64,000 bases of DNA, from the NCBI RefSeq assembly GCF_017874375.1, contig NZ_JAGGLK010000001.1:310001-374000 (forward strand), in the 5' to 3' direction. A program made the position numbers and the translations under genes. Shown here one piece after another: positions 24,621-41,206 of this stretch (the first letter of the stretch is position 1; the number at the start of each line of letters is the position of its first letter). Under the pieces are notes generated by a model that did not search any database, was not told the DNA's origin, and saw nothing but the letters and a program-made list of their open reading frames with translations. The stretch is from Methanohalophilus levihalophilus (GTDB lineage Archaea > Halobacteriota > Methanosarcinia > Methanosarcinales > Methanosarcinaceae).

Positions 24621-25589
24621 ATGGATATGAGAAAAATCCAGATCACAGGTAAATCAACATATGTCATGACCCTTCCAAAAAAGTGGGCCTGTCAGTCAAA
24701 TTTAAAAGCTGGCTCTCAGGTAGCTCTCAATCTTCAGGATGATGGTTCTCTGGTGATAATCCCAGAAAAGTCTCTTGACAAACCTTCCAAAATAACTCTT
24801 GAAATTAAGGATGACATTGAAGAAATGAAAAGGGAGTTGATTGGAGTTTACCTGATGGCCAGACACGATTTTATCGAGTTAAAAGGTCCCTCAATATCAA
24901 AAGAACTCAAAGTAGGTGTTGCTACTATCTGTGAACAATTAATTGGACTTGAAGTCGTCGATTCAAATGGTGATAGTGTTCTTATTCAGGATCTTCTTGA
25001 TTCCGATAGTTTCACTATCGAGCGTGGCTTGCAGAGACTCTATGCCATTACTATTACAATGATCGATGATTTGGTGCGGGCAATTGAAAATAATGATCAT
25101 GAACTTTTTGATTACATAATCTCCCGTGATTCGGATGCTGACCGCCTCTTTATGTTGATCTCCAAACAATTCATCAATCGCTTGAATCTTAAAAAAGCAT
25201 CCACTTTTGATAGTCTGGATTTGATCAATGCTTTCTATTACAGGCTTGCAGCAGAAAATATTGAGAGAATTGCAGATCATGCAACCAGAATTGCAGAAAA
25301 TATGAAGATTTTTTCATGTCATGAGAATAATTCTAAAAAACTTCAAACCTTGCTTCGAAATGCACAGGAACTTTTCAGGGAAAGTTATGACTCACTAAGA
25401 TATTCTGACAAAGAACTTGCAAATAGCGTCCTTTCAGGTAAGGATCCATTGTCTGATAACTTTGAGAATGATTCCATATGTGCCAATTCGGGGTGCATAT
25501 GCATGGCCATTCCGGTTAGCAGTATTTTGAGGATAAGGGATTATGCAACCAATATTGCGGAATTTACGATTGATTTATCGCAACTATAA
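24621..25589 (+). CDS. AbrB-PhoU phosphate regulator, copy 1
   Basis: A 322-residue protein. Residues 1-48 form a SpoVT/AbrB-type DNA-binding domain (MRKIQITGKSTYVMTLPKKW), and the rest is a PhoU domain of helical bundles with the metal-binding pattern NIERIADHATRIAE. PhoU proteins restrain phosphate uptake and signalling when phosphate is plentiful; the attached AbrB domain suggests direct control of promoters. A second copy lies at 37808-38797, on the other side of the pst/pilus locus. A TATA box 28 bases upstream indicates a leaderless transcript. The next gene overlaps its end by 47 bases. Confidence 0.9.
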   Translation: MDMRKIQITGKSTYVMTLPKKWACQSNLKAGSQVALNLQDDGSLVIIPEKSLDKPSKITLEIKDDIEEMKRELIGVYLMARHDFIELKGPSISKELKVGVATICEQLIGLEVVDSNGDSVLIQDLLDSDSFTIERGLQRLYAITITMIDDLVRAIENNDHELFDYIISRDSDADRLFMLISKQFINRLNLKKASTFDSLDLINAFYYRLAAENIERIADHATRIAENMKIFSCHENNSKKLQTLLRNAQELFRESYDSLRYSDKELANSVLSGKDPLSDNFENDSICANSGCICMAIPVSSILRIRDYATNIAEFTIDLSQL

Positions 25590-25983
25590 TCGCTTTCCGC
25601 TCATATTGAGCTTTGCTGCTTTTCTCGACTATTTCCTGACTTTTTATCTAGCTTCCGGCATTGATATTATCTTAGAATACGAATACAGTCCAACTCTTCT
25701 GTTTGCACTGAAGCATAACATACTGATTCCATATATTGTGGTGACAATGATTTTCTATTTCTTTGCCGGACGTTTCATTCTTAAGCAACTGGCTGATTCT
25801 GACATCTATTGGGTTGGCGCACTGGTAATATGTAGCATCAGTCTGACCCATGTATTGGGTGGTATTTCGTGGTATGTGCTCAATGAATCTTATTCAAATC
25901 TCGTTTTTCTTATGTCACGATTTTCGGTGGTAGTTTCCATTATTGCTCTTAGTTATGTCTTGATTGTGCAAAAAAATGCATAA
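25543..25983 (+). CDS. Multi-spanning membrane protein associated with AbrB-PhoU
   Basis: A 146-residue protein with about four membrane helices. The first contains a conserved Asp (SFAAFLDYFLTFYLASG), followed by a loop YEYSPTLLFALKHN and the motif LKQLADSD before the third helix. The same landmarks recur in the proteins at 38799-39200 and 40805-41206 (LGDFLSTYWAL, YRQLRDSD), so the three are one family (it may be DUF5658; unverified). The ATG at 25543 overlaps the PhoU gene by 47 bases; TTG at 25555 or 25570 are alternatives. Role unknown; its place beside AbrB-PhoU genes suggests a link to phosphate sensing. Confidence 0.72.
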   Translation: MQPILRNLRLIYRNYNRFPLILSFAAFLDYFLTFYLASGIDIILEYEYSPTLLFALKHNILIPYIVVTMIFYFFAGRFILKQLADSDIYWVGALVICSISLTHVLGGISWYVLNESYSNLVFLMSRFSVVVSIIALSYVLIVQKNA

Positions 25984-26065: not shown

Positions 26066-26245
26066 ATGAGTAAACTATCTGGATTGCTAATGGGAATATT
26101 GCTCTCCATGTATACTCTCTACTCCGTATGCATTTATTCTCCGGCAAACAGTTTTGATCTGTTTGGAGATCTAATTCTTATTGCCGTAGGAATTCTGTTC
26201 CTGATTTATCTTTCTCATAAAAAAAGTGAGGGAAATTCATCCTAA
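26066..26245 (+). CDS. Small membrane protein, 59 residues
   Basis: A short protein starting MSKLSGLLMGILLSMYTLY with two predicted membrane helices (about 5-24 and 34-52) and a charged tail (SHKKSEGNSS). An in-frame upstream start at 25964 would add a non-hydrophobic stretch overlapping the previous gene; ATG 26066 makes a more natural membrane protein. It ends one base before the ATG of the large surface protein at 26247. No family recognised. Confidence 0.5.
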   Translation: MSKLSGLLMGILLSMYTLYSVCIYSPANSFDLFGDLILIAVGILFLIYLSHKKSEGNSS

Positions 26246-26246
26246 G

Positions 26247-28289
26247 ATGTCTTTGATTGTATCTATGAAATCCCGAAATTTTATTATGGTAATGCAGGTT
26301 GCACTTTCCATTCTTATCATTATTGGAGGTTGTGGGCTTTGCACTGCAGATTGTCAGGAAGATCCTGATGAAGATATCCAATGGGATGATGAAGGTAGTG
26401 TCACTGTCAAGTGGGGACAAACTGAAAGAATTTCAGTTAATGGAATTAGTTATATCATAAAAGCAGAAGACTTTGGACCCGGGCTGGAACCGGAATCAGT
26501 TTCAATTTCCGTTGCAAATGAAGAAACTGGAGTTGTGGAACATGCCATTCTCTTCCTGAATAATTATAACTACCGGACTGCTGAGTACGACTATGAACTG
26601 AAATTGTACCTCAAAGAGATCAAGGTTGATTCTGACAAGACACCTTCGGCAACTTTCGAGTATGACAGGCGTGGGATCCCGGAACTTGAGGTTAAAATCG
26701 AGGCAAGCTCCGAAGAATTTGGTGAAATAGATGTTTCTTCTGAACAATATGCGCCTGATGAAGAGAAGGATTTCGACATAAAAATCAGGAATAAAGGAAG
26801 TGCCCGGATTTTTGATGTAGAACTTAGGATTGATCCGGGTGAGTTCACAATAACTGAAAAAAATGAGTTTAATAAGGAAGGTTCTGAGCTTACGATGGAC
26901 TTTAATTGCATAAACGCGGATGAAGATCTGACCTTTAATTTCACAGCCCGTGCTCCAGAATGGGATGGTTCCACCTCCCCATACAATCTTAATTACACAA
27001 TTCATGTCCTTGCAGATGGAAGGGACATTCTTGATTACAACTATGATTTTAAGGACAACATAACTCTCAGGGCTACTGATCCTGAGCTAAACGTAGTTCA
27101 GAGGGTTTATGCGCGCTCTTTTAATTATGCAAATGAAAGCAATGAGTGCAGGGCTGAGATTGATCTTAGTCCCTGGTATATTGAAGGCGGAAATCCTGAA
27201 GATTTATGGGATTATGTAACGGTGCATGGGGGTGTTTTCTCCACAGGCCTCTATACAGTGAGGAATGTGGAAGAACTACAGTCCGAACTTCCGGAAGAGC
27301 TTGTAGCGGTTGAGGTAACAGGTGATGGAAGTCCTGATTATATTTCCCCTGATTCTCCTTATTCTTTCAGCTATAAGTTGATGCCAACTGCTCCGGGTAC
27401 CTATACTCTCAAACCTTTCGAAACCAGAGTGGATTTCTTTGGTAAGGATTTCAACTGGAAGAGTGACAATTCCATTAAAATTATTGTTCATGGGCCTGAT
27501 ATTTCCTTATCTAAGACTTTGGAGATACAGGATGATTCTTATCTGGTAAAGGTGAATGTGGAAAATGTTGGGGATCGGGCAGCATGGATAAATGTCTCGG
27601 ATAGTGTTCCGGAAGAATGCAATTATGTTGACGGCAGTCTTGAGGAAAGCATCGAAGATAGTTCCCTTCCTCTTGATGAATGGGAAATTAACGTTCATAA
27701 CAATGGTTCATGTTCCATGAGCGTTGAAGGTGTATTCCTGCCTCCTTCAACTTCACTGGGTTTTTCATATGAACTTAATTCCGGTGAAATCGAATCTCTT
27801 CCTTATGCGCAAGCTGAATTCAGGGCACGAAATCTGTATTGGGGTTACGTCCGCTCTGATTACTATGAAAATGGTCAATGGGTATCCCAGCATTGGGACC
27901 GTTTCCTTGGGGAGTGGGTATTTGATCTACCTGCAGAAATTCACGATGAAGCACAGAACTCCGAGATGGGGGTCGAGGAGGATTCTGAAGAGACTACGGA
28001 AGGATCTGCCATTGATCCTTCCATAGTCCTTGCCAGTACTGCTGTGACAGGGACTGCTGGAGCAGTTGAAAATGAGTCGAGGGCACAGATGACCGGTTTT
28101 ATGGACTTTTTTGACGGTATAATAGACTCCATCATAGGTGTAATACTAGGAACAACTTCAGAAGTCGGGGGTGCTATGGGAAATGCGGGTGATGCCATAG
28201 GCACTATTGCCGAGGATTCTTTTCATGTTGTGGCAATTATAGTAGTTGTTGTTGGCTTCCTTGTGGGCACTTTCCTGCTGAAAAAATAA
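26247..28289 (+). CDS. Large membrane-anchored surface protein
   Basis: A 680-residue protein. An N-terminal signal-like helix (MVMQVALSILIIIGGCGLC) is followed by an acidic extracellular region of beta-rich repeats. These contain CARDB/DUF11-like segments (DFDIKIRNKGSARIFDVEL and VKVNVENVGDRAAWINVSD) and several N-glycosylation sequons. A linker rich in Glu, Ser and Thr and a C-terminal membrane helix (VAIIVVVVGFLVGTFLL) ending in Lys-Lys complete it. The latter resembles S-layer-type anchoring. It begins one base after the small membrane gene and precedes the pstS promoter. Function unknown; an adhesive or structural surface role is inferred. Confidence 0.72.
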   Translation: MSLIVSMKSRNFIMVMQVALSILIIIGGCGLCTADCQEDPDEDIQWDDEGSVTVKWGQTERISVNGISYIIKAEDFGPGLEPESVSISVANEETGVVEHAILFLNNYNYRTAEYDYELKLYLKEIKVDSDKTPSATFEYDRRGIPELEVKIEASSEEFGEIDVSSEQYAPDEEKDFDIKIRNKGSARIFDVELRIDPGEFTITEKNEFNKEGSELTMDFNCINADEDLTFNFTARAPEWDGSTSPYNLNYTIHVLADGRDILDYNYDFKDNITLRATDPELNVVQRVYARSFNYANESNECRAEIDLSPWYIEGGNPEDLWDYVTVHGGVFSTGLYTVRNVEELQSELPEELVAVEVTGDGSPDYISPDSPYSFSYKLMPTAPGTYTLKPFETRVDFFGKDFNWKSDNSIKIIVHGPDISLSKTLEIQDDSYLVKVNVENVGDRAAWINVSDSVPEECNYVDGSLEESIEDSSLPLDEWEINVHNNGSCSMSVEGVFLPPSTSLGFSYELNSGEIESLPYAQAEFRARNLYWGYVRSDYYENGQWVSQHWDRFLGEWVFDLPAEIHDEAQNSEMGVEEDSEETTEGSAIDPSIVLASTAVTGTAGAVENESRAQMTGFMDFFDGIIDSIIGVILGTTSEVGGAMGNAGDAIGTIAEDSFHVVAIIVVVVGFLVGTFLLKK

Positions 28290-28723
28290 AGCCTGTTTTC
28301 TCTTTCTAAGATTCGCGATTTAGACGAATTAAACCATGGGGGGTAAAAATAGTTCCTGATCCCGTCTTCCTGCGAGTTTTCAGCACTCCATGTTCTCTGT
28401 GCTCTTCACGTTTCACATGTGCAAAAGGCACTTGACTCCAAAAGAGGTTGGTGCACTCCTTGGTTTCTTATTAATCAATAATGTTTCCAATTTGCTTGTT
28501 TCCAAATTTCTACAGATGAGTCTCCTTTTGTTAACTGTCACAACTACAGATTTCTATATATTCATATTATAATCTACATAGTATTAAGAAGATATGGGTA
28601 TTCATTGTGCAATCTGTATATACTCCTCCCTCCTATTATGGGTTGGACAGATAAACTCCATGTGGCTCCATTTGGAGTGTGTCTGTTTAAGCCAAAATGC
28701 TATAAAATAAAGGTGTAAAAGAA
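28290..28723 (+). promoter_or_regulatory. pstS upstream region (434 bases)
   Basis: No convincing gene. CTATATATTC at 28554-28563 is a good TATA box, placing transcription start near 28585 and giving a leader of about 140 bases. The leader contains a hairpin (annotated separately). AGGTG at 28711-28715 is the ribosome site, 8 bases before the pstS ATG. The long leader is notable in a genome where many genes look leaderless. Confidence 0.6.
28647..28686 (+). promoter_or_regulatory. Two-part hairpin in the pstS leader
   Basis: ACAGA (28647-28651) pairs with TCTGT (28682-28686), and inside it ACTCCA (28655-28660) pairs with TGGAGT (28673-28678) around a 12-base loop, with a 3x3 internal loop between stems. 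It lies in the transcribed leader 38 bases before the pstS ATG. It could act as an RNA control element or as a DNA operator. No T-run follows, so it is not a simple terminator. Confidence 0.45.
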
Positions 28724-29704
28724 ATGGACTTAAAACAGTTCTTTAAGAGCGAAGAGGGTATTTCACCAATAGTGGCTACCCTTGTACTTGTTGTAGTGGC
28801 AATTGCCGGTGCAGCTGGTGTTGGTACAATCATGGGATCATTCTCCTCCGATGTTTCTGACGACGCAAGTGCTACAGAAGCATCCTCTGCAGCCTCGACA
28901 GAACTTCTCATTGCAGGAAGCTCAACCGTTCAACCAGTTTCTGAACTCCTCGCAGAAGCATACATGAAGGAGCACCCAGGTGTTAAAGTAACCGTGCAGG
29001 GCGGCGGCTCCGGTGCAGGTATCACCTCAACCCAGATGGACATCGTTGACATCGGTGCAGCATCCAAGGATGTAGACACTGTAACAGAATACCCCGATCT
29101 TGAGAAACACACTATCGGTGGTAGTGGACTTGTCATTATCGGTAATGATGCTTCCTCAATTGGTCTTGACGGTGCAAACGTTAGTGCTGCAGACCTGAAA
29201 ACCATTTACGACAACGTGGTTGGCGGTACAGTAACAGTATCTGTTGATGGTAACGGAACCCTTGCATACGATGCAGCAGGTACAACCGTAACAGTCTTCC
29301 AGCGTAGTGACGCGAGTGGTACCGAAGAAACCTTTGATAAGTGGGTGGACGAAAAGGGCTACTCTGACGAGACCGAAGCAATCGGCAAAGAAGGTAACTC
29401 TGGTGTACTTGCAGCAGTAGAAGACACCGATGACTCCATCGCTTTCGTAGATTATGGTTTCTATGCGTCAGGTGACGGTATTGTAGCAATCAACCCAGTA
29501 GGCTATACTGTTTCCAAGGACAACATCCTTGATTGCCTTGCAGGTGAAGATACCTATGATAGCGGTCTTACAAGACCACTCAACTACCTGACCAATGGTG
29601 CACCAAGCTCAGTAGAGCAGTCTTACATTCAGTTTGCAATGTCCCCTGCATCCAAGCAGTACTTCAACGAAGTAGGATATTTCTCTATCATTGAATTCGC
29701 CTAA
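28724..29704 (+). CDS. pstS: Phosphate-binding protein PstS with type IV pilin (class III) signal
   Basis: A 326-residue PstS. The mature part starts around residue 60 (LLIAGSSTVQPVSELLAEA) with the phosphate-loop residues GSST, GGGSGAG and RSDASGTEETF. The N-terminus is neither a Sec nor a lipobox signal: it reads KSEEGISPIVATLVLVV, a pilin-type leader in which cleavage is expected after Gly12, followed by a long hydrophobic helix and a Ser/Ala/Asp linker. Such signals are cut by PibD/EppA-type peptidases and allow assembly by pilus machinery. Codons ending in C are frequent, suggesting high expression. A terminator separates it from pstC. Confidence 0.93.
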   Translation: MDLKQFFKSEEGISPIVATLVLVVVAIAGAAGVGTIMGSFSSDVSDDASATEASSAASTELLIAGSSTVQPVSELLAEAYMKEHPGVKVTVQGGGSGAGITSTQMDIVDIGAASKDVDTVTEYPDLEKHTIGGSGLVIIGNDASSIGLDGANVSAADLKTIYDNVVGGTVTVSVDGNGTLAYDAAGTTVTVFQRSDASGTEETFDKWVDEKGYSDETEAIGKEGNSGVLAAVEDTDDSIAFVDYGFYASGDGIVAINPVGYTVSKDNILDCLAGEDTYDSGLTRPLNYLTNGAPSSVEQSYIQFAMSPASKQYFNEVGYFSIIEFA

Positions 29705-29711
29705 ACTTAAG

Positions 29712-29754
29712 GTCCCTTCTGTGCCAGTCCTCTGGCACAGGACATCTTTTTTTT
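29712..29754 (+). terminator. Hairpin terminator or attenuator between pstS and pstC
   Basis: TGTGCCAG (29720-29727) pairs perfectly with CTGGCACA (29732-29739) around the loop TCCT. Outer bases GTCC (29712-29715) can pair with GGAC (29740-29743) across a bulge. Eight T residues follow at 29747-29754. It ends 27 bases before the pstC ATG. It should end or reduce most transcripts after pstS, giving more binding protein than permease. Confidence 0.75.
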
Positions 29755-29781
29755 GAAAACGAATCGTAGTTTTTGAGAAAC

Positions 29782-30702
29782 ATGAAAACCAATAATAAAA
29801 TCGATTTTCATCACCTTTTATTCCTCTCGTGTGGATTGCTTACTGTAATTGTTATTACTTTTTTCGTAGGTTTTGTATTCTATACTGCTTATCCAATATT
29901 TGCACAGGAAGGCTTTTCATTCCTGACCGGCGACCGATGGAGTTACACTGATGATGTATTTGGCATCAGGATCTTTATTCTGGGTTCCTTGATATTAACC
30001 GGTACAACTCTCTTGATGGCGGTTCCTTTGAGCCTTTTCAGTGCTATCTGTATTTCGGAATTTGTCTCTGAAAAAGTTGAATTTGTCTTCAAATCCCTTA
30101 TTGAATTGCTTGTGGGTATCCCTTCAGTGGTTTACGGGATTTTCGGTTTGTTTGTTCTGGAAAACATTTTCCAGTATCAAATAGAGCCTTTTATATCCTC
30201 TACTCTTGGCTTCATTCCTATTTTCAGGGATGTTACTCCTTCTTTCGGACTTGGTTTGCTACTTGCTTCAGTGATTCTTACTATAATGATCTTGCCCACT
30301 GTAACTGCGATTTCCATTGATGCCATGAAAGCGGTTCCCTATGATTACAGGGAAGGCTCCTATGCTGTAGGTGCTACGCAGTGGGAAACAATTCGACATG
30401 TTGTCCTCCCGGCTGCTTCGAGTGGAGTTGTTTCTGCCGTCATCCTCGGCATGATGCGTGCTATCGGGGAAACGATGGCAATTGTGATGGTATTCGGGAA
30501 TGCTGTCAATGTCCCCGTCAGTCTGATGGACACAGGTTTTGCAATGACATCCAAGATCCTTAATGACATCGGTTTTTACGTAGCACAGGATGTTCCCCGA
30601 AGTGCACTTTTCGGTATTGCAGCAGTTCTTTTTGCAATTGAAATCGTTCTTGTGGCTGCAGCAAGGTATGTTGGTAAAAGAGGGATGGTGATCCAGTCAT
30701 GA
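29782..30702 (+). CDS. pstC: Phosphate ABC transporter permease PstC
   Basis: A 306-residue permease with six predicted membrane helices. The cytoplasmic EAA-type loop DYREGSYAVGATQWETIRHVVLP contacts the ATPase in normal Pst systems. IGETMAIVMVFGN near the end is typical of PstC. I take ATG 29782, not TTG 29773, since the protein then begins MKTNNKIDFHHL and the extra residues add nothing. The stop overlaps the pstA start (ATGA). Confidence 0.93.
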   Translation: MKTNNKIDFHHLLFLSCGLLTVIVITFFVGFVFYTAYPIFAQEGFSFLTGDRWSYTDDVFGIRIFILGSLILTGTTLLMAVPLSLFSAICISEFVSEKVEFVFKSLIELLVGIPSVVYGIFGLFVLENIFQYQIEPFISSTLGFIPIFRDVTPSFGLGLLLASVILTIMILPTVTAISIDAMKAVPYDYREGSYAVGATQWETIRHVVLPAASSGVVSAVILGMMRAIGETMAIVMVFGNAVNVPVSLMDTGFAMTSKILNDIGFYVAQDVPRSALFGIAAVLFAIEIVLVAAARYVGKRGMVIQS

Positions 30703-31592
30703 ATAATCGGATACTGAAAGGCAAGATATTCAAGGGAATGGCCTATGCAGGTGCCATTATATCGTTGCTTGCCCTTGTGACTATACTTGGTTCAATATTG
30801 CATCAGGCACTTCCATCTTTAAGTTGGGCTTTTATTTTTACGGCAGAATCAGATGTTGAAGGTCTTGGGGGTGGTGTTGCAAATGCTGTGATTGGTACTG
30901 TTTTGCTATCCGTATTGTCTCCTCTGCTTGCAACTCCTCTTGCAATTGGCACGGCAGTTTACCTCAAGCGCTATGCTACTAATGAGAAGCTCGTGAAAAG
31001 TCTGAGCTTTATGCTTGATGTTCTCTCCGGCACACCTTCCATTGTGCTTGGGATCTTCGGTCTCCTGTTTATTGTTATATACATGCGGGAAGTTACCGGA
31101 GGTTTCTCACTTATTTCCGGTGTTATTGCACTTGCAATCCTGATACTTCCGGTTATTGAAAGGGCAACGGAAGAAGCAATTGATACTGTTCCCCAGAGTC
31201 TTGAGGAAGGGAGTTATGCTCTTGGGGCAACCAAATGGCATACCATCAGGGATATAACCCTTCCATATGCACTATCGGGGATTCTTACCGGTATTGTCCT
31301 GAGTATCGGACGTGCAGCCGAGGAATCTGCTGTCGTAATCCTGACTGCTGGCTACACCCAGTTCTCTCCTGAACTTAAGGTGGCTGCAAATGAAAAATTA
31401 ATCTTTGGGGTCAAAGTTTATCCATTTCAGGATCTTATTGCTGCCCTCCCAATTACGGTGTACAAATCTTTTGAATTCCCGCATCTGATAGATCCTTCCC
31501 AGGGGTTTGCAGCTGCTGTTGTCCTGATCTTTATTGTAATGGTAATTAACTTCACAACCCGCCTAATAGTCTGGAGGCGCCGCATTGGCTAA
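30699..31592 (+). CDS. pstA: Phosphate ABC transporter permease PstA
   Basis: A 297-residue permease, partner of PstC in the membrane channel, with about six helices. The EAA loop is EEGSYALGATKWHTIRDITLP, and the conserved GTPSIVLGIFGLLF and GRAAEESAVVILTAG segments are present. Its stop overlaps the next gene by 8 bases. In standard pst operons pstB follows here; instead the following gene encodes a pilus-type secretion ATPase. No PstB-type ABC ATPase with an LSGGQ signature is found anywhere in the window. Confidence 0.93.
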   Translation: MNNRILKGKIFKGMAYAGAIISLLALVTILGSILHQALPSLSWAFIFTAESDVEGLGGGVANAVIGTVLLSVLSPLLATPLAIGTAVYLKRYATNEKLVKSLSFMLDVLSGTPSIVLGIFGLLFIVIYMREVTGGFSLISGVIALAILILPVIERATEEAIDTVPQSLEEGSYALGATKWHTIRDITLPYALSGILTGIVLSIGRAAEESAVVILTAGYTQFSPELKVAANEKLIFGVKVYPFQDLIAALPITVYKSFEFPHLIDPSQGFAAAVVLIFIVMVINFTTRLIVWRRRIG

Positions 31593-33540
31593 ACTGAAGC
31601 TTCTGCAAAAGAAGAGTTCGGAAAAGGAAGATTCCGGTATTAACAGCATGCCAAATCCTCCGCAGGAGGATAAATCTGAAAATAGTGGACGCTTTTCAAT
31701 GCCTTCCCTTCGAAAAAAAGACAATCAAAAAGGGGGAAAAGTATTTGCTGAAGCTCTTTTGGAAGGGGATGCCAAATCCAAAAAACCCAAAAGTGGTAAA
31801 TTCAGCATTGAAGCTATTATTGAACGCTTTCTCGCACCCGATTGCGATGACATGGAAGGACTGGGTTTTGATACCGGTCAGGTAGAAGAACCGAAAATGG
31901 GAGTTTCCTTCAGGGATGTCGATATCACTTATGAGGTCCAGTCTCCTTTTCAGTATGCTCATGTGGAATTTAACGGGGAGGAACTACAATATACATGCCA
32001 TGAGCCGCCTCTGAGTGAAAGCGAGATGCGCTATCTCAAAATCATCGAAAGTGCCTTTGAAAAACTGACAAACACCGATATTCTTATAATCAGGCCTGAT
32101 GAGCGCAGGGAAGCTCTCCGCGCCAGGTTCTCAATGATTATTGACATTTACAGGCTGGAGATGACCGATTTTCAGAAAGAAAAAATGTTCTACTACCTCC
32201 TGAAAAAATACGTCGGTTTCGGGCAGATTGACATTTTGATGAATGATCCCTATATCGAAGATATTACCTGCAACGGCCCTGAAATGCCTCTTTATATCAA
32301 CCACAGGATGTACGGTTCAATCAGGACCGATGTTGTTTTTGAAGAGATTGATCTTAACAACTTCGTCATGAAAATGGCCCAGACATCCGGAAGGCATATT
32401 TCCGTTCTCCAGCCCATCAGGGATGCAACCCTTGCAGACGGAAGCCGTGTCAACCTGACCCTCGGAAAAGAAGTCACGAAAAAGGGTTCTACATTTACCA
32501 TCAGGCGTTTCAAATCCAATCCTGTATCTGCGGTAGACTTGATGAATTACGGTACTTTCAATGCCGAAGTTCTCGCTTACCTGTGGATAGTGGTTGAGTA
32601 TAAACGCTCCATCCTTGCAGCAGGGGGAACCGCTTCAGGTAAGACTACAACCCTTAACGCAATGGGTGCTTTTATCCGTCCGGAGTACAAAATTGTGTCC
32701 ATTGAAGATACTGCTGAAATGAATCTCATGCATCCAAACTGGACTCAGTCAATAACACGCGCCGGGTTTGGTGGTTCAGAAGGAGGCAAATCTGCAGGTG
32801 ATATTGAGTTATATGATCTTCTTAAAGCTGCATTGAGACAACGTCCTGAATATATTGTTGTTGGTGAAGTAAGGGGTGCGGAAGCATCCACTCTCTTCCA
32901 GGCCATCTCTGTAGGTCACCCTTGTATGGGTACCATTCACGCCGGTTCAATGAAAGAATTGCTTTCAAGGGTTGAATCCGAGCCGATGAATGTGCCACGC
33001 AACCTTTTCTCAAGTCTTGATGTTGTAATCTTCAACTCCATGATCAAAGTGGGGGAACACTTCATACGCAGAGCATTGCGTATTGTGGAACTCGTGGAAA
33101 TGGATCCTGAAAAAGGGGATTTGATTACAAATCCTGTGTTTAAATGGAATCCAATCGATGACACTTATATTTACAGCGGGGGAAGCGCAATGTTTGAAGC
33201 CATCTCTGAAGAATTCGGTATAGGGGTGGATTTTCTTGAAGAGGAAATGAGGAACCGGTCCAAACATCTTGACTGGATGCAGAAAAACGATATTAAGAAC
33301 TATGAAGAAGTCGTCAAAGCCATCCGGAGATATGCGAGGGATAAGGATGCTATGCTTGAAGAGGAGCATCGCGGACAAAAATCTCATACCGCTCCTGGTG
33401 ATGAAATAGTCGAATACATTGAAGATGTGGTAAAAGAAGTTACTTTGGATGATGTTCCTTTTGAAGACGATATCGATTCACTTGGAAACGCAACAAAATC
33501 CCGGGATTTGTCTGATAGTACTATGGGTGGGGTGGCATGA
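31585..33540 (+). CDS. Type IV pilus/archaellum-type assembly ATPase (GspE/TadA/VirB11 family)
   Basis: A 651-residue ATPase. A charged, low-complexity N-terminal region (1-75) precedes an N-terminal domain, then the motor core with Walker A GGTASGKT at 347-354 (Lys353), an acidic box around VSIEDTAEMN, Walker B YIVVGEVRG (Glu428) and a His box MGTIHAGS. These hexameric ATPases drive assembly of pilins at the membrane. The TTG start at 31585 is supported by GGAGG at 31573-31577, 7 bases upstream, and overlaps the pstA stop. The C-terminal 70 residues are an acidic tail not usual in the family. Confidence 0.92.
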   Translation: MAKLKLLQKKSSEKEDSGINSMPNPPQEDKSENSGRFSMPSLRKKDNQKGGKVFAEALLEGDAKSKKPKSGKFSIEAIIERFLAPDCDDMEGLGFDTGQVEEPKMGVSFRDVDITYEVQSPFQYAHVEFNGEELQYTCHEPPLSESEMRYLKIIESAFEKLTNTDILIIRPDERREALRARFSMIIDIYRLEMTDFQKEKMFYYLLKKYVGFGQIDILMNDPYIEDITCNGPEMPLYINHRMYGSIRTDVVFEEIDLNNFVMKMAQTSGRHISVLQPIRDATLADGSRVNLTLGKEVTKKGSTFTIRRFKSNPVSAVDLMNYGTFNAEVLAYLWIVVEYKRSILAAGGTASGKTTTLNAMGAFIRPEYKIVSIEDTAEMNLMHPNWTQSITRAGFGGSEGGKSAGDIELYDLLKAALRQRPEYIVVGEVRGAEASTLFQAISVGHPCMGTIHAGSMKELLSRVESEPMNVPRNLFSSLDVVIFNSMIKVGEHFIRRALRIVELVEMDPEKGDLITNPVFKWNPIDDTYIYSGGSAMFEAISEEFGIGVDFLEEEMRNRSKHLDWMQKNDIKNYEEVVKAIRRYARDKDAMLEEEHRGQKSHTAPGDEIVEYIEDVVKEVTLDDVPFEDDIDSLGNATKSRDLSDSTMGGVA

Positions 33541-34478
33541 AACTTTTCCGGAGAAAAAAAGAGCCGGAATACATTCTGGATCAGGGATATGAACATGAAA
33601 TTAAAAAAAATGCTCTTGATAAATACGTTCAAAAGTACAAGGTTTTTTGCTATCATTTTGGACGCTACGTGGATCGTGAGCCCCGAGATGAAATTGCCAA
33701 AATGCTATATCGTGCAGATATCGAAATGACTCCGGGAATGTTTGTATCACTGGCCGGGGTTACCGCAGTCCTTGCCTCGTTGCTTGTGTTTGGAAGCTCA
33801 ATATTCCTTTTCTACAATTCCACCTCTCCTCTCCTGTATATCTTTGGTCTTTCATTCCTGACTCTCGTTGTTACAGCAGGAAGTTTTCCTTTTGTCCTGT
33901 ACAATAAAATATCAAACAAGAATACGAATATTGAGCAGGAGCTCCCCTTTGCACTTGGGTATATGTCAATTCTTGCAAGCGCGGGCTCCACTCCTCTCGA
34001 AGTAATAAGGCGTATTTCCATTGAAGATTACGGGGGTATTTCTCTGGAATTCCGGAAAGTTATCTACCGGGTTGATTTGCTTGGGGAAGACGGAATTTCC
34101 GCCATGAACTATCTTATTCACAATACTTCATCTGAAATGTTTCGGACCATATGCATCGATATCACAAATACTATGCAATCGGGTGGAGGACTTAAAGCGT
34201 ATCTTGAATCCAAGTCCACAGATCTCATGAAAATGCGTAAACTTACCCAGAAGCAATTTGTTGATTCGTTGGCTGTTTACGGGGAAGGCTATCTGAGTGG
34301 TGTTGTACTGAGTGTCGTGCTTGTAATTCTGGGTATTGTTGTTGCCAGTGCACTGGGGATAGAACTGTTCCTTGAACCGAAAGTGCTTTTTACTGTATTC
34401 GTTTATGGAGTTCTTCCTTTTGTTAATATTCTTTTCTTGGTTCTCTTGTGGATGAAATATTCCGGGAGCGTAGTATGA
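33537..34478 (+). CDS. TadC/GspF-like pilus platform membrane protein, first copy
   Basis: A 313-residue inner-membrane protein of the T2SF family. Two helices near residues 75-125 and a pair near the C-terminus flank a cytoplasmic helical domain (ELPFALGYMSILASAGSTPLEVI, then MQSGGGLKAYLESKSTDLMKMR), the hallmark of the GspF/TadC fold. It anchors the assembly ATPase. The start overlaps the ATPase stop (ATGA) and its stop overlaps the next gene, so all three are co-translated. Confidence 0.88.
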   Translation: MKLFRRKKEPEYILDQGYEHEIKKNALDKYVQKYKVFCYHFGRYVDREPRDEIAKMLYRADIEMTPGMFVSLAGVTAVLASLLVFGSSIFLFYNSTSPLLYIFGLSFLTLVVTAGSFPFVLYNKISNKNTNIEQELPFALGYMSILASAGSTPLEVIRRISIEDYGGISLEFRKVIYRVDLLGEDGISAMNYLIHNTSSEMFRTICIDITNTMQSGGGLKAYLESKSTDLMKMRKLTQKQFVDSLAVYGEGYLSGVVLSVVLVILGIVVASALGIELFLEPKVLFTVFVYGVLPFVNILFLVLLWMKYSGSVV

Positions 34479-35827
34479 GTTCCAATTTCAGGATGATGAT
34501 GGAAAGGTATCTTCAGCTCATCCGGCTACGCTACGATGTTCGCAGGGGATATTTCACTGCTGCTTTACCTTTGGTAATTGCACTCCTGATTCTCTTCTCC
34601 GCAGTAATGACCGGTCATACTTTTCCGTCCCAGCAACTGGACTCCTCTTTCTCTGGGGGATCACTGTCCGAAGAAGATGCAAAGAAGGCTGCCTATCAAG
34701 CTTTAGTCGCACAGATGGAAGCTGAGGAAGCAGGCATTGATCCGGCTACTCTTGAAGAAAGACCCGCTGAAGAGGGGGAGGAGACAGCCCGGGATAATCT
34801 GGATCATATATTGGTTTATGCGTTGTTAATTGGGATTATTCCTTATTCAATAGATTCTTTTTTCCAGAAAAAAAACCAAATGAAAAAGGAGGTTGCTTTC
34901 AGTGAATTTCTCTTCAAGATGTCCGAGCTTATGCGTGGGGGCATTGATCCGGTCAAAGCCGTAATAGATCTGGCAAAAACCGATCTTGGTTCCATGAATA
35001 GCCCCATCAAATCCGCAGCTTCAAAAATGGTTCTTGGATATTCATTTTCCGACGCTATGGGCGGCGTCGCTGAAGAAATGAACAGCAATCTGATATCCAA
35101 ATACATTAATGTCGTAGTGCAGGCCGCTTATACCGGGGGAAATGTTGCAGACCTTCTGCAGCGCACATCAGAGGATATGCGTGCTGTAATTGCCATTGAA
35201 AGAGAAAAGGAATCAAATCTTAAACAATACGTTATTATTTTCTATCTGGCTCAGGGTATAGTCATCATGCTTTCCTATCTTCTCTCCACTTCCCTTTTGC
35301 CTATGATTCAGGGGGTGGGTGCCCAGATGCTGGGAGGCGTTGGTCTTAGCGACATAAACTTCCAGTATGGTTTTTTCCACATGATTCTATTAAATGGCCT
35401 GTTTGGCGGGCTTATCATCGGGCAAATTTCAGAAGGGGAATTAAAACATGGCTTAAAGCATTCCGCCATTTTAATTATCGGAAGCTATATCGCTTGTACA
35501 ATCCTCATTCTTCCGACACTGGATGCAGCCTCTCTTTACTCCGTAGACCTTGTTTCCGGTGACGGACAGTCGGGATTTGGCGGTCTTACATTAACTGAAC
35601 CCCTGGTTTTCCAGGTAGTTGACAAGGATGGAAATCCCGTTCCTGATACCTTTGTATATTTGAGTATTGCTCCATCGGGTATGGTCTCAGGAGTTTTGGA
35701 AACAGACGATGGGGGTAATGTTTCAGTGTCTCCGGTTTTGGGTGATTCAATCGGGGCTTATACTATTACGGCACAGATAGGTGACTCCACAGCGGTAGCT
35801 ATGGCTTCGGTAATTGATGGAAGTTAA
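34475..35827 (+). CDS. TadC/GspF-like platform protein with C-terminal Ig-like domain, second copy
   Basis: A 450-residue protein. A GspF-type domain (EFLFKMSELMRGGIDPVKAV, AAYTGGNVADLLQRTSEDM) is embedded in several membrane helices. An acidic insert lies at about residues 60-105 (EEDAKKAAYQALVAQMEAEEA). The last 85 residues form an Ig-like strand-rich domain (PLVFQVVDKDGNPVPDTFVYL, ending AVAMASV) after the final helix, so it would face outside. ATG 34475 overlaps the previous stop; an earlier in-frame start at 34448 is unlikely. Paired GspF proteins are usual in archaeal pilus loci, but the external Ig-like domain is not. Confidence 0.85.
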   Translation: MSSNFRMMMERYLQLIRLRYDVRRGYFTAALPLVIALLILFSAVMTGHTFPSQQLDSSFSGGSLSEEDAKKAAYQALVAQMEAEEAGIDPATLEERPAEEGEETARDNLDHILVYALLIGIIPYSIDSFFQKKNQMKKEVAFSEFLFKMSELMRGGIDPVKAVIDLAKTDLGSMNSPIKSAASKMVLGYSFSDAMGGVAEEMNSNLISKYINVVVQAAYTGGNVADLLQRTSEDMRAVIAIEREKESNLKQYVIIFYLAQGIVIMLSYLLSTSLLPMIQGVGAQMLGGVGLSDINFQYGFFHMILLNGLFGGLIIGQISEGELKHGLKHSAILIIGSYIACTILILPTLDAASLYSVDLVSGDGQSGFGGLTLTEPLVFQVVDKDGNPVPDTFVYLSIAPSGMVSGVLETDDGGNVSVSPVLGDSIGAYTITAQIGDSTAVAMASVIDGS

Positions 35828-35839
35828 AAATAACTGCAG

Positions 35840-36526
35840 TTATCCCACACGTTCCCTTACATCAATGATTATTCCTTCCTGACTGACCTTGAAGGGAATA
35901 ATCTTTTCCAGGGGAAGGTTGTTTTTCATTTTTGGAATATTTAGGTAACGTCCTACTTTGTTTCCTGTATGGCTTGTCTTGAACTGGATAATGCCGTCTG
36001 CCATAGCCCTTATGATGTTCTCACTGTGCGGGTCAAGCACTCCGGAATCCAGTGTAAGCAGAAAAATCATATCGTTTTTACGGCTTATTTTTGTCAGCGA
36101 TTCCATTGTTTTCACAAGGGTTTCAAAACTTTCCCCGAGGAATATGAATGAGAATGTATCAAAAATACAAATGTCAATTTGATTAATATCCAGGGAACTG
36201 TCGATTGTGTGATATTTTTTGTTTACCTGTGCATCCGGGCCAAAAGTTTCGAGCATGGCAACATGATCCCTGAAATTTCCCAGGATGGTGAATTTGCTTT
36301 CGTCCGGAGTTATATCAAAAAAGCTCATTTCTTCGTAGACTTCCTTTTTTGAACGGGTTGTAGAAAGGTAGAGTATTTGCTTATCTTCCCTTTGCATATC
36401 TTCGGCATTTTTTTGTACAAACAAGCTTTTAACGGTCCCAAGATCTTCTTCTATGAGTATTACTGAACTTGAGGGAAGCTTTTTGATCCCTATTCCTGCA
36501 AGTACCATCAAGGGTATGTATTGCAA
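35840..36526 (-). CDS. Degenerate KaiC/FlaH-like RecA-fold protein
   Basis: A 228-residue protein with a RecA/KaiC-like layout: a P-loop-like strand-loop (VILIEEDLGTVKSLF), a Walker B-like strand (IDICIFDTFSFIF) and later core strands (KNDMIFLLTLDSG). The P-loop departs from GxxxxGK[ST]: Glu stands for the first Gly and Val precedes the Lys. ATP hydrolysis is therefore doubtful. FlaH/ArlH, a KaiC relative, regulates the archaellum ATPase, so a regulatory role beside the pilus genes is a reasonable inference. The start is TTG 36526, with an ATG at 36508 as alternative. It is convergent with the pilus operon and divergent from the pilin-like gene. Confidence 0.7.
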   Translation of the reverse strand: MQYIPLMVLAGIGIKKLPSSSVILIEEDLGTVKSLFVQKNAEDMQREDKQILYLSTTRSKKEVYEEMSFFDITPDESKFTILGNFRDHVAMLETFGPDAQVNKKYHTIDSSLDINQIDICIFDTFSFIFLGESFETLVKTMESLTKISRKNDMIFLLTLDSGVLDPHSENIIRAMADGIIQFKTSHTGNKVGRYLNIPKMKNNLPLEKIIPFKVSQEGIIIDVRERVG

Positions 36527-36626
36527 CTTTGTTTTAATACTTTGGCGATATAGACTATAGATTTTACATGTGTATATATATTATCCATCCAAAAGCTATA
36601 TATGATGACTATTGGATTTTGTACAT
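36527..36626. promoter_or_regulatory. Bidirectional promoter, KaiC-like / pilin-like genes
   Basis: CTATATATG (36596-36604) centres 27 bases before ATG 36627, giving a leaderless transcript for the pilin-like gene. TGTATATATATTA (36571-36583) can serve the minus-strand gene starting at 36526. Confidence 0.55.
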
Positions 36627-37757
36627 ATGCCTTCAAAGGAGATGCTGTCCTTTCTAAGGGATGAAAAAGGAATATCCGTTGTTTTCGGAACTCTTTTGCT
36701 GATTCTCATTACCATAACTGCTGCGGCAAGCCTTGCACTTTTTGTCTCTGAAACCCAGAAATCAATGATGGAAAGGGAGGAGCACATCTCTGCTGTTGAA
36801 AATGAGGAGTTGCGTATCCTGAAACTGCAACCTTCTGGCAACAGTTCTCATTGGAGTACTTTGAACATCACTTTGTTAAACCTTAATACTGCTGATTCCA
36901 GAATAGCTTCAATAGCACTAAACAACAATTTTGTTTTTAATTATTTGTTGTTGACTTCCACAGGAGATGTGGAGTATAACTCGAAATATCCGGATTATCC
37001 TGTAATATACAATTCCAAAGTAAGGCCCAGAATTAAGGCGACAAGCAGTCTGACCCTGTCCGTTCCCTTTGAATATATCGTTGTTAATACAACTGAATCT
37101 TTTTCTCTTGGTAGCTGGAGCAATATGACTGAAAATTTCACTTTCAAGCTTCAGAATCATCCGGTACTTGCAAATTATCCGGTAGATTGCAACATCGAAG
37201 TTTATAACGTTTCAAACAACAACAGCCTTGTTTTGGAAACCGGTAACTTTTCGATCGATGTTGAGGGTGACGATCCTCTAATGACTATCCTTGCAGGAGG
37301 CCGCATGAGTAACAGTTCATCCTATAGGGTGGATTATTCTTCCACTTTCGTAACTTTCAATTCACTTTCATCGATTTCACGCAATGAGCCACTTCAGGTC
37401 GAAGTTATAACCTCCCTTATAAACATTTTTGGAGATACGTATACTCCTCCGGTGCCTCTTGCGAGTGTGAATTACGAAACGGAGCGATGGATGGTTAATG
37501 GAACTCCCTACTATCAGGACGTTCTGGTTCTTGATGCTTCACAATCATTTGATGACGATGGTAGTATTGTTTCCTATCGCTGGGCTGCCTGGACAAATTC
37601 AACTCTCGTATATTCCTACAATCTGACAGGAAAAGTTGCCCGAGCTTCTTTGATAAATCCTTATGATTCCAATGTGACAATTGATCTTGAAGTGGTTGAT
37701 GATATGGGTATGGTTTCACGATTAAGTGAGAGGGGTGGGATAATACAACTTTCCTGA
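36627..37757 (+). CDS. Pilin-like surface protein with class III signal
   Basis: A 376-residue protein. Its N-terminus (LRDEKGISVVFGTLLLILI) is a pilin leader with cleavage expected after Gly15, matching the G-I-S site in PstS. The mature part is large, beta-rich and carries many N-glycosylation sequons (NSS, NIT, NTT, NMT, NFT), ending with a PKD-like domain (LVLDASQSFDDDGSIVSYRWAA). I choose ATG 36627 because a TATA box lies 27 bases upstream. It is probably a minor pilin or a pilus-anchored adhesin for the adjacent machinery. No usual small major pilin is seen nearby. Confidence 0.78.
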   Translation: MPSKEMLSFLRDEKGISVVFGTLLLILITITAAASLALFVSETQKSMMEREEHISAVENEELRILKLQPSGNSSHWSTLNITLLNLNTADSRIASIALNNNFVFNYLLLTSTGDVEYNSKYPDYPVIYNSKVRPRIKATSSLTLSVPFEYIVVNTTESFSLGSWSNMTENFTFKLQNHPVLANYPVDCNIEVYNVSNNNSLVLETGNFSIDVEGDDPLMTILAGGRMSNSSSYRVDYSSTFVTFNSLSSISRNEPLQVEVITSLINIFGDTYTPPVPLASVNYETERWMVNGTPYYQDVLVLDASQSFDDDGSIVSYRWAAWTNSTLVYSYNLTGKVARASLINPYDSNVTIDLEVVDDMGMVSRLSERGGIIQLS

Positions 37758-37807
37758 AACGTAAGCTGGAATTCATGCTGGATATTTTTGGATTGGATCT
37801 GATATTA

Positions 37808-38797
37808 ATGGCAGAAAAAAGAAAAATTCAATTGACAGGTGGTTCAACATACATTGTTTCCCTTCCAATAAAATGGGTTCGCAATACTGGAATGTCTGTG
37901 GGGGATACTGTTAACCTTATTCCTCAGTCAGATAATTCTCTTTTGATATCTTCCGATTTACTCTCTGAAGAAAAACAATTCAAAGCTTCGATCGAAGTTC
38001 CTGAAAACTCCGATCCTGAAGACACTTTTAGAATTTTGGTTTCATATTATCTTGTCGGATTTGATCTTATTACTCTTCAATCAAACAAAGGATTTTCAGC
38101 TTCCGAAAGAAAATTTATTAAGGATGCTTCCAGAAAACGCTTGATAGGATTGGAAGTTGTTGAAGAAAACAAGCATGATCTCGTTTTGCAAAGCCTTTTG
38201 AATTATCGGGATCTGTCACTCCATAAAGCTATTGGAAGTATGGAAGGCTTGTTGACTTCAATGCTTGAGGATGTGATGGAAGCTCTAAAAACCGGTGACT
38301 TTGAAATTGCAAAAGATGTCCTGCAGAGGGATAACGAAGTGGATCGTTTTTACCTCTTAACTGTAAGGCAAATTAAAGGTGCAATTGAAGATCGAAACCT
38401 TTCTGAAAAACTCGGAATTTCAAGACCCCGGGAGTGCCTTGGATATCGTTTGGTAGTAAAGAATCTGGAGCGCATAGGTGATCACATGGTTCGTATCACA
38501 AACAAAGCTCTTGAACTTGATGAACCGCTTCCAAAAGATCATTTTATTTTTTCACTATCAAATGATGTATCTCATGTTTTTAAGTCCTCGATGACTTCGC
38601 TAGAGTTGGTAGACACTAAGAGGGCTAACGCAACTATCAAAATGTCTCAGAAAATTTCCAACAGGATACTTTCTGAAAAAAAAGAAATTGAGCCCCGTAT
38701 TGCTTCAATATCCGAAAGCCTTAGGCGTATTGCGGAGTATAGTGCCGATATAGCTGAAATATCAATAAATATGGGTACGAAAGAGCTTCATTCCTGA
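37808..38797 (+). CDS. AbrB-PhoU phosphate regulator, copy 2
   Basis: A 329-residue paralogue of the protein at 24621-25589. It has an AbrB-like N-terminus (KRKIQLTGGSTYIVSLPIKW) and a PhoU domain with LERIGDHMVRITNK. I set the start at ATG 37808 (MAEKRKIQ) by comparison with copy 1; ATG 37775 would add 11 hydrophobic residues. It lies 50 bases after the pilin-like gene and converges, with 1 base between, on a membrane-protein gene of the same family that follows copy 1. Likely a DNA-binding regulator of phosphate genes. Confidence 0.88.
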   Translation: MAEKRKIQLTGGSTYIVSLPIKWVRNTGMSVGDTVNLIPQSDNSLLISSDLLSEEKQFKASIEVPENSDPEDTFRILVSYYLVGFDLITLQSNKGFSASERKFIKDASRKRLIGLEVVEENKHDLVLQSLLNYRDLSLHKAIGSMEGLLTSMLEDVMEALKTGDFEIAKDVLQRDNEVDRFYLLTVRQIKGAIEDRNLSEKLGISRPRECLGYRLVVKNLERIGDHMVRITNKALELDEPLPKDHFIFSLSNDVSHVFKSSMTSLELVDTKRANATIKMSQKISNRILSEKKEIEPRIASISESLRRIAEYSADIAEISINMGTKELHS

Positions 38798-38798
38798 T

Positions 38799-39200
38799 TT
38801 ACATCATCGCAAGAGTGACTAGATCTGTGAGACTTATTCTTGCAACTACTACCATCATGTTGTTGACTACAAGGAATGCTCCTGCAAATGTAATTGCATT
38901 TTTTGAGTAGTTCCAGATTGTATCTCTTTCCTTCATATCCGAATCTCTTAGCTGGCGATATGTCCAATAAGCAAATAATATGAAAATCATTTTGAATATG
39001 AACAGGATGCCAATCCCAAAGTGCTCCATGGCAAGTGCAAGGAATCCATTTTGTTCAAATCCGTAGTTTAATGCCCAATATGTACTTAGAAAATCTCCAA
39101 GGACATAAAACAGGATCATGTAACGTATTTCATAAAGGAAAGCGCGTGCTTCTTTCCAATCTTCTTCATACCTATTTTCTATTGATATATATCCTGTCAT
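38799..39200 (-). CDS. Multi-spanning membrane protein (PhoU-linked family), copy A
   Basis: A 133-residue protein with a cytoplasmic charged start (ENRYEEDWKEARAFLYEIRY) and about four membrane helices. Landmarks are LGDFLSTYWALNYGFEQN, YRQLRDSD and FAGAFLVVNN. About three quarters of its residues match copy B at 40805-41206, and it shares the overall pattern with the protein at 25543-25983. AGAGG just upstream is a fair ribosome site. Function unknown; the repeated pairing with AbrB-PhoU suggests a membrane partner in phosphate signalling. Confidence 0.75.
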   Translation of the reverse strand: MTGYISIENRYEEDWKEARAFLYEIRYMILFYVLGDFLSTYWALNYGFEQNGFLALAMEHFGIGILFIFKMIFILFAYWTYRQLRDSDMKERDTIWNYSKNAITFAGAFLVVNNMMVVVARISLTDLVTLAMM

Positions 39201-40804: not shown

Positions 40805-41206
40805 TTACATAATTGCAAGAGTGAGAAGATCTGTAAAGCTGATCCGTGCAACTACTACTAGCATGTTGTTGATTACCAGAAATGCTCCTGCAAATGTAAT
40901 TACATTTTTTGAGTAGTTCCACATTTTCTCCCTTGTTTTCATCTTTGAATATTTTAACTGACGATATGTCCAGTAAGCAAACACAATGAAAAAGACTTTA
41001 AATAAGAGGAAGATTCCAATTCCAAAGTGTTCCATAGCAAGTGCTAGAAACTTATTTTGTTCAAAACTATATTGCAACGCCCAGCATGTGCTCAGGAAGT
41101 CTCCAAGAACGTAAAACAGGATCATATAACGAATTTCCTTTAGGAAATCCCGTGCTTCTTTCCAGTCTTCTTCATACCTGTTATTTATTGATATGCATTC
41201 TGTCAT
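40805..41206 (-). CDS. Multi-spanning membrane protein (PhoU-linked family), copy B
   Basis: A 133-residue paralogue of copy A, equal in length and alignable without gaps at roughly 75% identity. The shared core includes RYMILFYVLGDFLST and FLALAMEHFGIGI. It has about four membrane helices and a charged cytoplasmic start. Unlike copy A it has no AbrB-PhoU neighbour. A TATA element (AAATATAAGTA, minus strand near 41350-41362) sits about 150 bases upstream, giving a long leader. A recent tandem duplication with intervening genes is likely. Confidence 0.75.
   Translation of the reverse strand: MTECISINNRYEEDWKEARDFLKEIRYMILFYVLGDFLSTCWALQYSFEQNKFLALAMEHFGIGIFLLFKVFFIVFAYWTYRQLKYSKMKTREKMWNYSKNVITFAGAFLVINNMLVVVARISFTDLLTLAIM

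Follow-up and report, generated by a model that had tools for sequence, protein, structure and literature searches.

Genes for a phosphate-binding protein with a pilin-type N-terminus, phosphate permeases and a type IV filament machine share one conserved locus in archaea

Organization of the locus

We analyzed a stretch of 64,000 nucleotides from the archaeon Methanohalophilus levihalophilus (the window; all positions are those of the whole window), whose source genome comprises 2.1 Mb in five contigs, and describe a locus in which phosphate transport (pst) genes adjoin genes for a type IV filament machine. From 28724 to 35827, six genes form a tightly packed run on one strand, in the order pstS-pstC-pstA-tadA-tadC1-tadC2, with overlapping ends at pstC/pstA, pstA/tadA, tadA/tadC1 and tadC1/tadC2. 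This core is flanked by two genes for AbrB-PhoU proteins, a surface-protein gene, a KaiC/ArlH-like gene and a gene for a second protein with a pilin leader, which we call PIL.

Profile matches identified the products of the core, all encoded on the + strand. PstS (28724..29704) begins with a pilin-type N-terminus and matched PBP_like_2, TIGR02136 and TIGR02537. The permeases PstC (29773..30702, with a true start perhaps at the ATG at 29782) and PstA (30699..31592) both matched PF00528 (BPD_transp_1). They are followed by a TadA/GspE-type assembly ATPase (31585..33540; PF00437, T2SSE, E 4.8e-36) and by two TadC-type platform proteins that matched PF00482 (T2SSF), TadC1 at 33537..34478 and TadC2 at 34448..35827, the latter starting perhaps at the ATG at 34475. 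The C-terminal region of TadC2 is Big_1-like, with a PF02369 score below the cut-off. The ATPase gene starts with TTG at 31585, preceded by GGAGG at 31573-31577, and the stop codon of pstA is TAA at 31590-31592, so that the two genes overlap by 8 bases.

These results agree with a preliminary description of the window, made from its letters and open reading frames, that had placed a pilin-leader PstS, PstC and PstA in series, had the ATPase gene overlap pstA by 8 bases behind a GGAGG, and had two GspF/TadC-like platform genes follow it. Its wording that the phosphate operon is "fused" to a pilus machine was too strong, as these are separate genes with overlapping ends. It had also held that a terminator between pstA and the ATPase gene would speak against a joint system. 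A scan for terminator-like sites detected none between these two genes; a strong one lies instead between pstS and pstC (29717..29742, + strand), and consists of a hairpin followed by a T-run.

PstS combines a pilin-type N-terminus with a phosphate-binding domain

The window PstS scored 20.2 bits against TIGR02537, the model for archaellin and type IV pilin N-termini, for which the curated cut-off is 20. Its layout is EEG/ISPIVATLVLVVVAIAGAAGVG (the slash marks the predicted cut), a flexible linker of about 20 residues and the phosphate-binding domain. That it might be a lipoprotein was rejected, as it has no lipobox. The domain gave sequence-profile matches to solved PstS structures in the PDB, including E. 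coli-type relatives, and contains the PstS-typical motifs GSSTVQP, GGGSGAG and R..ASGT; a structural model of the protein matched PstS in Foldseek (E 5.8e-18). The score against TIGR02136 was 120.6 bits, below the full-length cut-off of 206.6.

We compared linked PstS proteins, whose loci also encode TadA, PIL or the surface protein, with canonical PstS proteins from operons with PstB. A pilin-type N-terminus, typically EAGVSPIVATLVLVVVAIAGAAAVG, was present in all 45 of the linked proteins sampled and in none of the 15 canonical ones, 14 of which have a lipobox. Average conservation was also distributed differently in the two groups: pairwise identity among linked proteins was 85% in the 34-residue pilin helix and 45% in the binding domain, and among canonical proteins 26% in the signal peptide and 58% in the mature part. 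A pilin helix that is far more conserved than the domain it carries is the pattern that packing of the helix within an assembly would be expected to produce. In pilins the H-domain is the assembly scaffold, and in Haloferax volcanii an almost invariant H-domain is common to the adhesion pilins only (PMC2910488, PMC4371748).

Other forms of PstS were seen during this comparison. Several Methanolobus genomes encode a second pilin-leader PstS that forms a pair with a further AbrB-PhoU gene, in some cases a long way from the pilus locus (L141:9784-10920, L142:4750-5868, L068:1433-2608, L069:16356-17444, L072:6684-7808). Two Methanosarcina-type genomes have a stand-alone PstS with a transmembrane, non-pilin N-terminus beside a protein of 725-731 residues (L138:9394-10440, L139:9207-10223).

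The locus is conserved across families and orders

We surveyed 150 genomes of the order and searched 393 genomes across the phylum. The sampled genomes are related, and the counts that follow express a strong association, not independent events or a probability. Within the order, 26 of 150 genomes encode PstA of the window type (58-72% identity), and the same genomes encode TadA of the window type (at least 64% identity), contig breaks aside. Wherever the contig was unbroken, pstA and tadA were adjacent, which bears out the expectation, raised in the preliminary description, that this gene order would recur in relatives. The locus is present in Methanolobus profundi, M. vulcani, M. psychrotolerans, M. 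bombayensis and a Methanomethylovorans metagenome-assembled genome (MAG), and the standard plan in relatives is AbrB-PhoU, h146 (a small membrane protein), surface protein, pstS, pstC, pstA, tadA, tadC1, tadC2, kaiC (on the opposite strand), PIL, AbrB-PhoU and h133 (another small membrane protein).

Across the phylum, the TadA clade occurred in 27 of 393 genomes, including members of families that we label f10, f11, f16 and f27. The loci in these four families contain pstC-pstA, and also pstS wherever the stretch reaches far enough, except for L192 of f10. A pilin-leader PstS was encoded in 26 of the 27 genomes; the exception, G131, is cut by a contig end. When the 81 N-terminal residues of PstS were used as the query, matches were found in 29 of 150 genomes, all of which have the TadA clade but for G035 and, at a contig end, G051. 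Two MAGs of family f10 (G240 and G270) have a pilin-leader PstS without a matched TadA.

In other families and orders the gene set recurs, partly reshuffled (L137, L185, L187, L188, L191). In a Methanomicrobiaceae MAG (L137), for example, the order is tadC1-tadC2-kaiC-h146-pstS-pstC-pstA-tadA-PIL. Genes that are re-ordered yet kept together point to a shared function and not to an inherited neighborhood alone. The locus of family f5 has TadA, two TadC proteins, PIL, AbrB-PhoU and two pilin-leader PstS-like proteins; PstC and PstA are absent from it, which indicates that the machine tracks PstS and not the permease. We found nothing in favor of the idea that the arrangement is a chance neighborhood or an assembly artefact. 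Conservation across families and orders makes chance implausible, and the same arrangement in complete single-contig genomes as well as in other orders rules such an origin out for practical purposes; we regard its probability as negligible.

In family f16 the linked PstA is extended to 507-948 residues (L189:783-3515, L190:1193-4039, L191:11676-13199). In the L190 protein the permease domain alone was recognized, and genes for PKD-domain proteins come next in the L189 and L190 loci.

The ATPase belongs to a distinct clade of type IV machines

The source genome has seven T2SSE-type ATPase genes, of which the pst-linked one is a single member. We built a quick tree of 66 sequences, with some long branches, that included 24 paralogues taken from the same genomes and from related ones. 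The Pst-linked TadA proteins formed a clade of their own (34 rows, support 100), sister to a clade from f5 and f10, and both were separated from the 24 paralogues (support 99). Nearly every member of the Pst-linked clade adjoins pstS-pstC-pstA. TadA from f11 (L185-L186, from a genome of about 1.07 Mb) nests with sequences of family f3, which suggests that the locus was transferred. Elsewhere, in a genome of f5 (G076, L206), a paralogous TadA-TadC pair has a canonical-type PstS nearby.

With a TadA-type ATPase, two TadC-type platform genes and proteins with pilin leaders, the locus is by its machinery an archaeal type IV filament system. A single gene for a prepilin peptidase (PF01478) was found in the genome, at C1:189674-189985. 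The ATPase scored 413.5 bits against the ArlI/FlaI equivalog NF058587, below the cut-off of 550, and there are no archaellum genes in the cluster; an archaellum locus was rejected on these grounds.

Taken together, the clade-specific linkage spanning orders, the universal pilin N-terminus of linked PstS and the extreme conservation of its helix strongly support a functional link between PstS and the pilus machine.

Signals for expression

A hairpin with a stem of at least 7 pairs follows 30 of 34 linked-type pstS genes, 29 of them with a T-run, compared to 6% expected after shuffling. The stem sequence varies among loci while the pairing is kept, a count of kept pairing that is inflated by the picking of sequences as stems. 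After canonical pstS genes such a hairpin was found in 2 of 13 cases, none with a T-run. The hairpin likely results in more PstS than permease and machine, fitting a structural subunit. It could be an attenuator or a protector of the 3' end.

Upstream of pstS, an alignment of 14 upstream regions and word counts defined a conserved promoter block (28554..28623, + strand) in which TATAG/CTATA words recur alongside a TATA-like element. Per 250 bases, these words occurred 3.5 times upstream of linked pstS genes, compared to 1.0 expected, and 3.7 times upstream of canonical pst genes, compared to 0.8 expected, which suggests that linked and canonical pst promoters may have a regulator in common. 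The words are also several times above expectation upstream of PIL and of the canonical pstS (L010), and the repeats are a candidate operator for AbrB-PhoU or another phosphate regulator.

PIL and other possible clients of the machine

Judging from these comparisons, we consider it fairly probable that the type IV machine is dedicated to PstS and builds it into a phosphate-capturing structure on the cell surface. PIL (36612..37757, + strand; 381 residues) scored 23.2 bits against TIGR02537 and is conserved in relatives. A scan for pilin leaders gave only PstS and PIL as plausible proteins in the window; in the loci of thirteen relatives, two hits were false, falling in frames that do not represent genes, and all others were PstS-type proteins and PIL. 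The structural model of PIL has a long N-terminal pilin stem, beta domains and a PKD-like C-terminus, and a fold search with it gave only weak Ig-type and archaellum or pilus matches. PIL is likely a minor or base pilin.

PIL or distant pilins might instead form an ordinary adhesive pilus that is co-expressed with a second pst operon during phosphate starvation, the pilin leader of PstS being a mere anchor. The conservation of a separate pilin in the locus fits such a pilus. In their census of archaeal pili, Makarova et al. show that an ATPase/TadC pair may serve pilins whose genes lie in trans, and name KaiC proteins, together with an S-layer-like protein, among the companions of euryarchaeal pili (PMC4858521). 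A plain anchor would hardly need a helix kept at 85% identity over 34 residues. The canonical PstS in the same genomes has a lipobox. Moreover, only this one of the several ATPase clades per genome is pst-linked, and PstS is kept even where PstC and PstA are not. We therefore consider an adhesive pilus unlikely.

We also considered a short pseudopilus of PIL that would act as a piston or scaffold and position PstS, or release it, through the S-layer or wall, with PstS as cargo or tip. The predicted structures fit this division of labor, with a long continuous stem and beta domains in PIL and a short helix and disordered linker in PstS. Divergence of PIL also followed that of TadA tightly (r = 0.89), and that of PstS less so (r = 0.69), with TadC at r = 0.95-0.96. 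The helix of PstS is nonetheless more conserved than that of PIL (85% compared to 73%), and the conserved hairpin suggests a surplus of PstS, and we judge this arrangement to be improbable, more so than an adhesive pilus. Co-divergence was dropped as support for PstS as the closest partner of TadA, since its r of 0.69 does not single it out.

Several points weigh against assembly of PstS by the machine. The FlaFind-like positions -2 and -1 vary among relatives, many of which have EAG/V or RAV, and the exact cut site is unsure. TIGR02537 matched at E 0.01 in only 4 of 11 PstS proteins. In the model of PstS the pilin helix is short (residues 15-36) and of low confidence; a disordered linker (residues 37-57) comes after it, unlike the continuous stem of a classical pilin. 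The use of pilins in trans by archaeal machines leaves room for other clients encoded elsewhere. The preliminary description had named a different cluster of pilins clearly served by this ATPase as a ground for refutation; the leader scan of the locus gave PstS and PIL only. Finally, processing and multimerization of PstS and its dependence on TadA are predictions. In a stronger form of the proposal, a true filament would consist mainly of repeated PstS subunits, making this a phosphate-binding pilus in which the binding protein has replaced the major pilin and which has spread through the phylum by descent and transfer; we hold this form as tentative and rather doubtful.

The permeases and the source of PstB

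There is no pstB in this cluster, and the gene for the pilus ATPase fills its usual position. PstC and PstA have kept their EAA loops, and PstC its MRAxGETM motif, and they should therefore need an ABC ATPase. The pilus ATPase was rejected as a transporter motor in place of PstB, as it is of the TadA type with platform proteins of its own and the permeases keep the ABC coupling loops. The only PstB of the genome is encoded at a distance of about 108 kb, as part of an ordinary pstS-C-A-B-phoU operon (C1:234-238 kb) whose PstS carries a lipobox. In complete genomes that carry the locus, a single PstB goes with two permease sets; the exception is L191, where pstB and a PhoU-like gene lie beside the pilus locus. 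From this distribution, PstB may be shared by both permease sets. A canonical pst operon of the genus of the window (L143:4701-6440) has a frame of 579 residues that apparently contains two PstS domains in one chain.

The lack of pstB in most loci, together with the two flanking AbrB-PhoU genes, could be read to mean that PstSCA senses phosphate instead of importing it, and relays the signal to the pilus machine by way of AbrB-PhoU. The retention of the coupling loops and of MRAxGETM, and the L191 lineage, in which pstB and a PhoU-like gene adjoin the locus, make a sensor very unlikely.

Flanking genes

The preliminary description had AbrB-PhoU regulators at both ends, and a KaiC/FlaH-like gene and a second pilin-signal gene nearby; all of these were recovered. 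AbrB-PhoU regulator 1 (24621..25589, + strand; MazE-type AbrB domain) matched PF04014 and PF01895 and is in the same place in relatives. Regulator 2 (37775..38797, + strand), with a start perhaps at an internal ATG, scored above the cut-off for PF01895 and just below that for PF04014, and is also conserved. The KaiC/ArlH-like ATPase (35840..36526, - strand) matched PF06745, scored below the cut-off of the NCBIfam ArlH model and is conserved in place and orientation. The gene at 26226..28289 (+ strand; start codon uncertain) encodes a large secreted or membrane-anchored protein with weak DUF11-like similarity, which we take to be of COG1361 type. It is kept upstream of pstS in intact loci, and its product is likely an S-layer or pilus accessory protein. 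The preliminary description did not mention this gene as part of a conserved locus, the absence of pstB from the cluster, or the conservation across families and orders.

The gene for the small membrane protein h146 (25543..25983, + strand) overlaps the gene for regulator 1 by 47 bases. The protein had no Pfam or NCBIfam match, and its gene is kept beside regulator 1 or pstS in relatives, among them L137, L185 and L188. The small membrane protein h133 (38799..39200, - strand) faces regulator 2 and lies beside it in Methanolobus loci too. h146 and h133 show weak similarity to each other (33% over 43 residues, E 0.003). The frame at 40805-41206 resembles a copy of h133, and all three small membrane proteins adjoin AbrB-PhoU genes.

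Comparison with known systems

In Sulfolobus solfataricus, the genes for the binding proteins and permeases of the bindosome are located elsewhere than in the bas operon. In this bindosome, a dedicated FlaI/FlaJ-like ATPase and platform protein help to place substrate-binding proteins with pilin leaders on the cell surface, and loss of basEF impairs glucose uptake (PMC2910488, PMC4371748). The linked PstS proteins share the class III (pilin-type) leader of those substrate-binding proteins in 45 of 45 cases. The present system differs in its substrate, phosphate instead of sugars, in having pstS, the permeases, two TadC genes, PIL, KaiC and AbrB-PhoU in one Halobacteriota locus, and in having its own PIL and surface protein, which are absent from Sulfolobus Bas. 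The ATPase scored 196.7 bits against the BasE-family model NF053672 (cut-off 1000), and the pilin-leader scan of the locus, which gave PstS and the 381-residue PIL only, found none of the small pilins BasA-C of the bas operon. Since both are missing, we do not class the locus as a bindosome. The analogy drawn in the preliminary description is apt for a pilin-leader binding protein with a dedicated machine, and does not extend to demonstrable close kinship with BasE or to PIL and the surface protein. By our judgment, the system would work like the Sulfolobus bindosome and yet not be descended from it.

As described in the 2016 pilus census (PMC4858521), euryarchaeal clade 2 pili (PilB3/PilA and PilB4 type) likewise have TadA with two TadC proteins, KaiC nearby and an S-layer-like protein, and PIL resembles the beta-rich minor pilins of 250-550 residues (arCOG02911 type). 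Unlike those systems, the locus has no gene for a PilA-type major pilin and has PstS in its place. It shares with PstSCAB the fold and sequence of PstS and the conserved coupling loops of PstC and PstA, and differs in lacking PstB, in a PstS that is not a lipoprotein and in the pilus ATPase gene at the usual position of pstB.

The main text of the 2016 census does not mention phosphate or PstS (PMC4858521), and our literature search gave no description of the linked locus, in keeping with the impression in the preliminary description that such a system had not been reported. A FlaFind study listed archaeal substrate-binding proteins with class III leaders (PMC2910488), and individual PstS proteins may have appeared in a list of this kind before.

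A proposed model for phosphate capture, and its significance

We infer the following sequence of events for assembly of PstS into a phosphate-capturing surface structure. PstS would be synthesized with a pilin leader and inserted through Sec; the only prepilin peptidase of the genome would cut it, and PIL would be inserted and trimmed likewise. TadA, TadC1 and TadC2 would then build PstS into a structure of many subunits, with PIL as a base or minor subunit, and the hairpin after pstS would allow PstS to be made in excess. Many phosphate-binding domains could thereby be held at or in the S-layer on flexible linkers, and captured phosphate would be handed to PstC-PstA for import driven by PstB, whose only gene lies outside the locus. 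The phosphate state would set expression through the two AbrB-PhoU proteins, which, together with the KaiC-like protein, may regulate synthesis or assembly.

If this proposal is correct, surface structures built from nutrient-binding proteins would be a widespread archaeal strategy and not a sugar specialty of Sulfolobus; in this case the target is phosphate, and the locus also encodes the importer and regulators. These archaea have several unexplained type IV systems, one of which would gain a client. Cultured genera (Methanolobus) have the locus, as apparently does Methanosarcina acetivorans, which is genetically tractable, and this makes the arraying of binding proteins by type IV machines directly testable. 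For methanogens and their methane-oxidizing relatives, the system would represent an added mechanism of phosphate capture.

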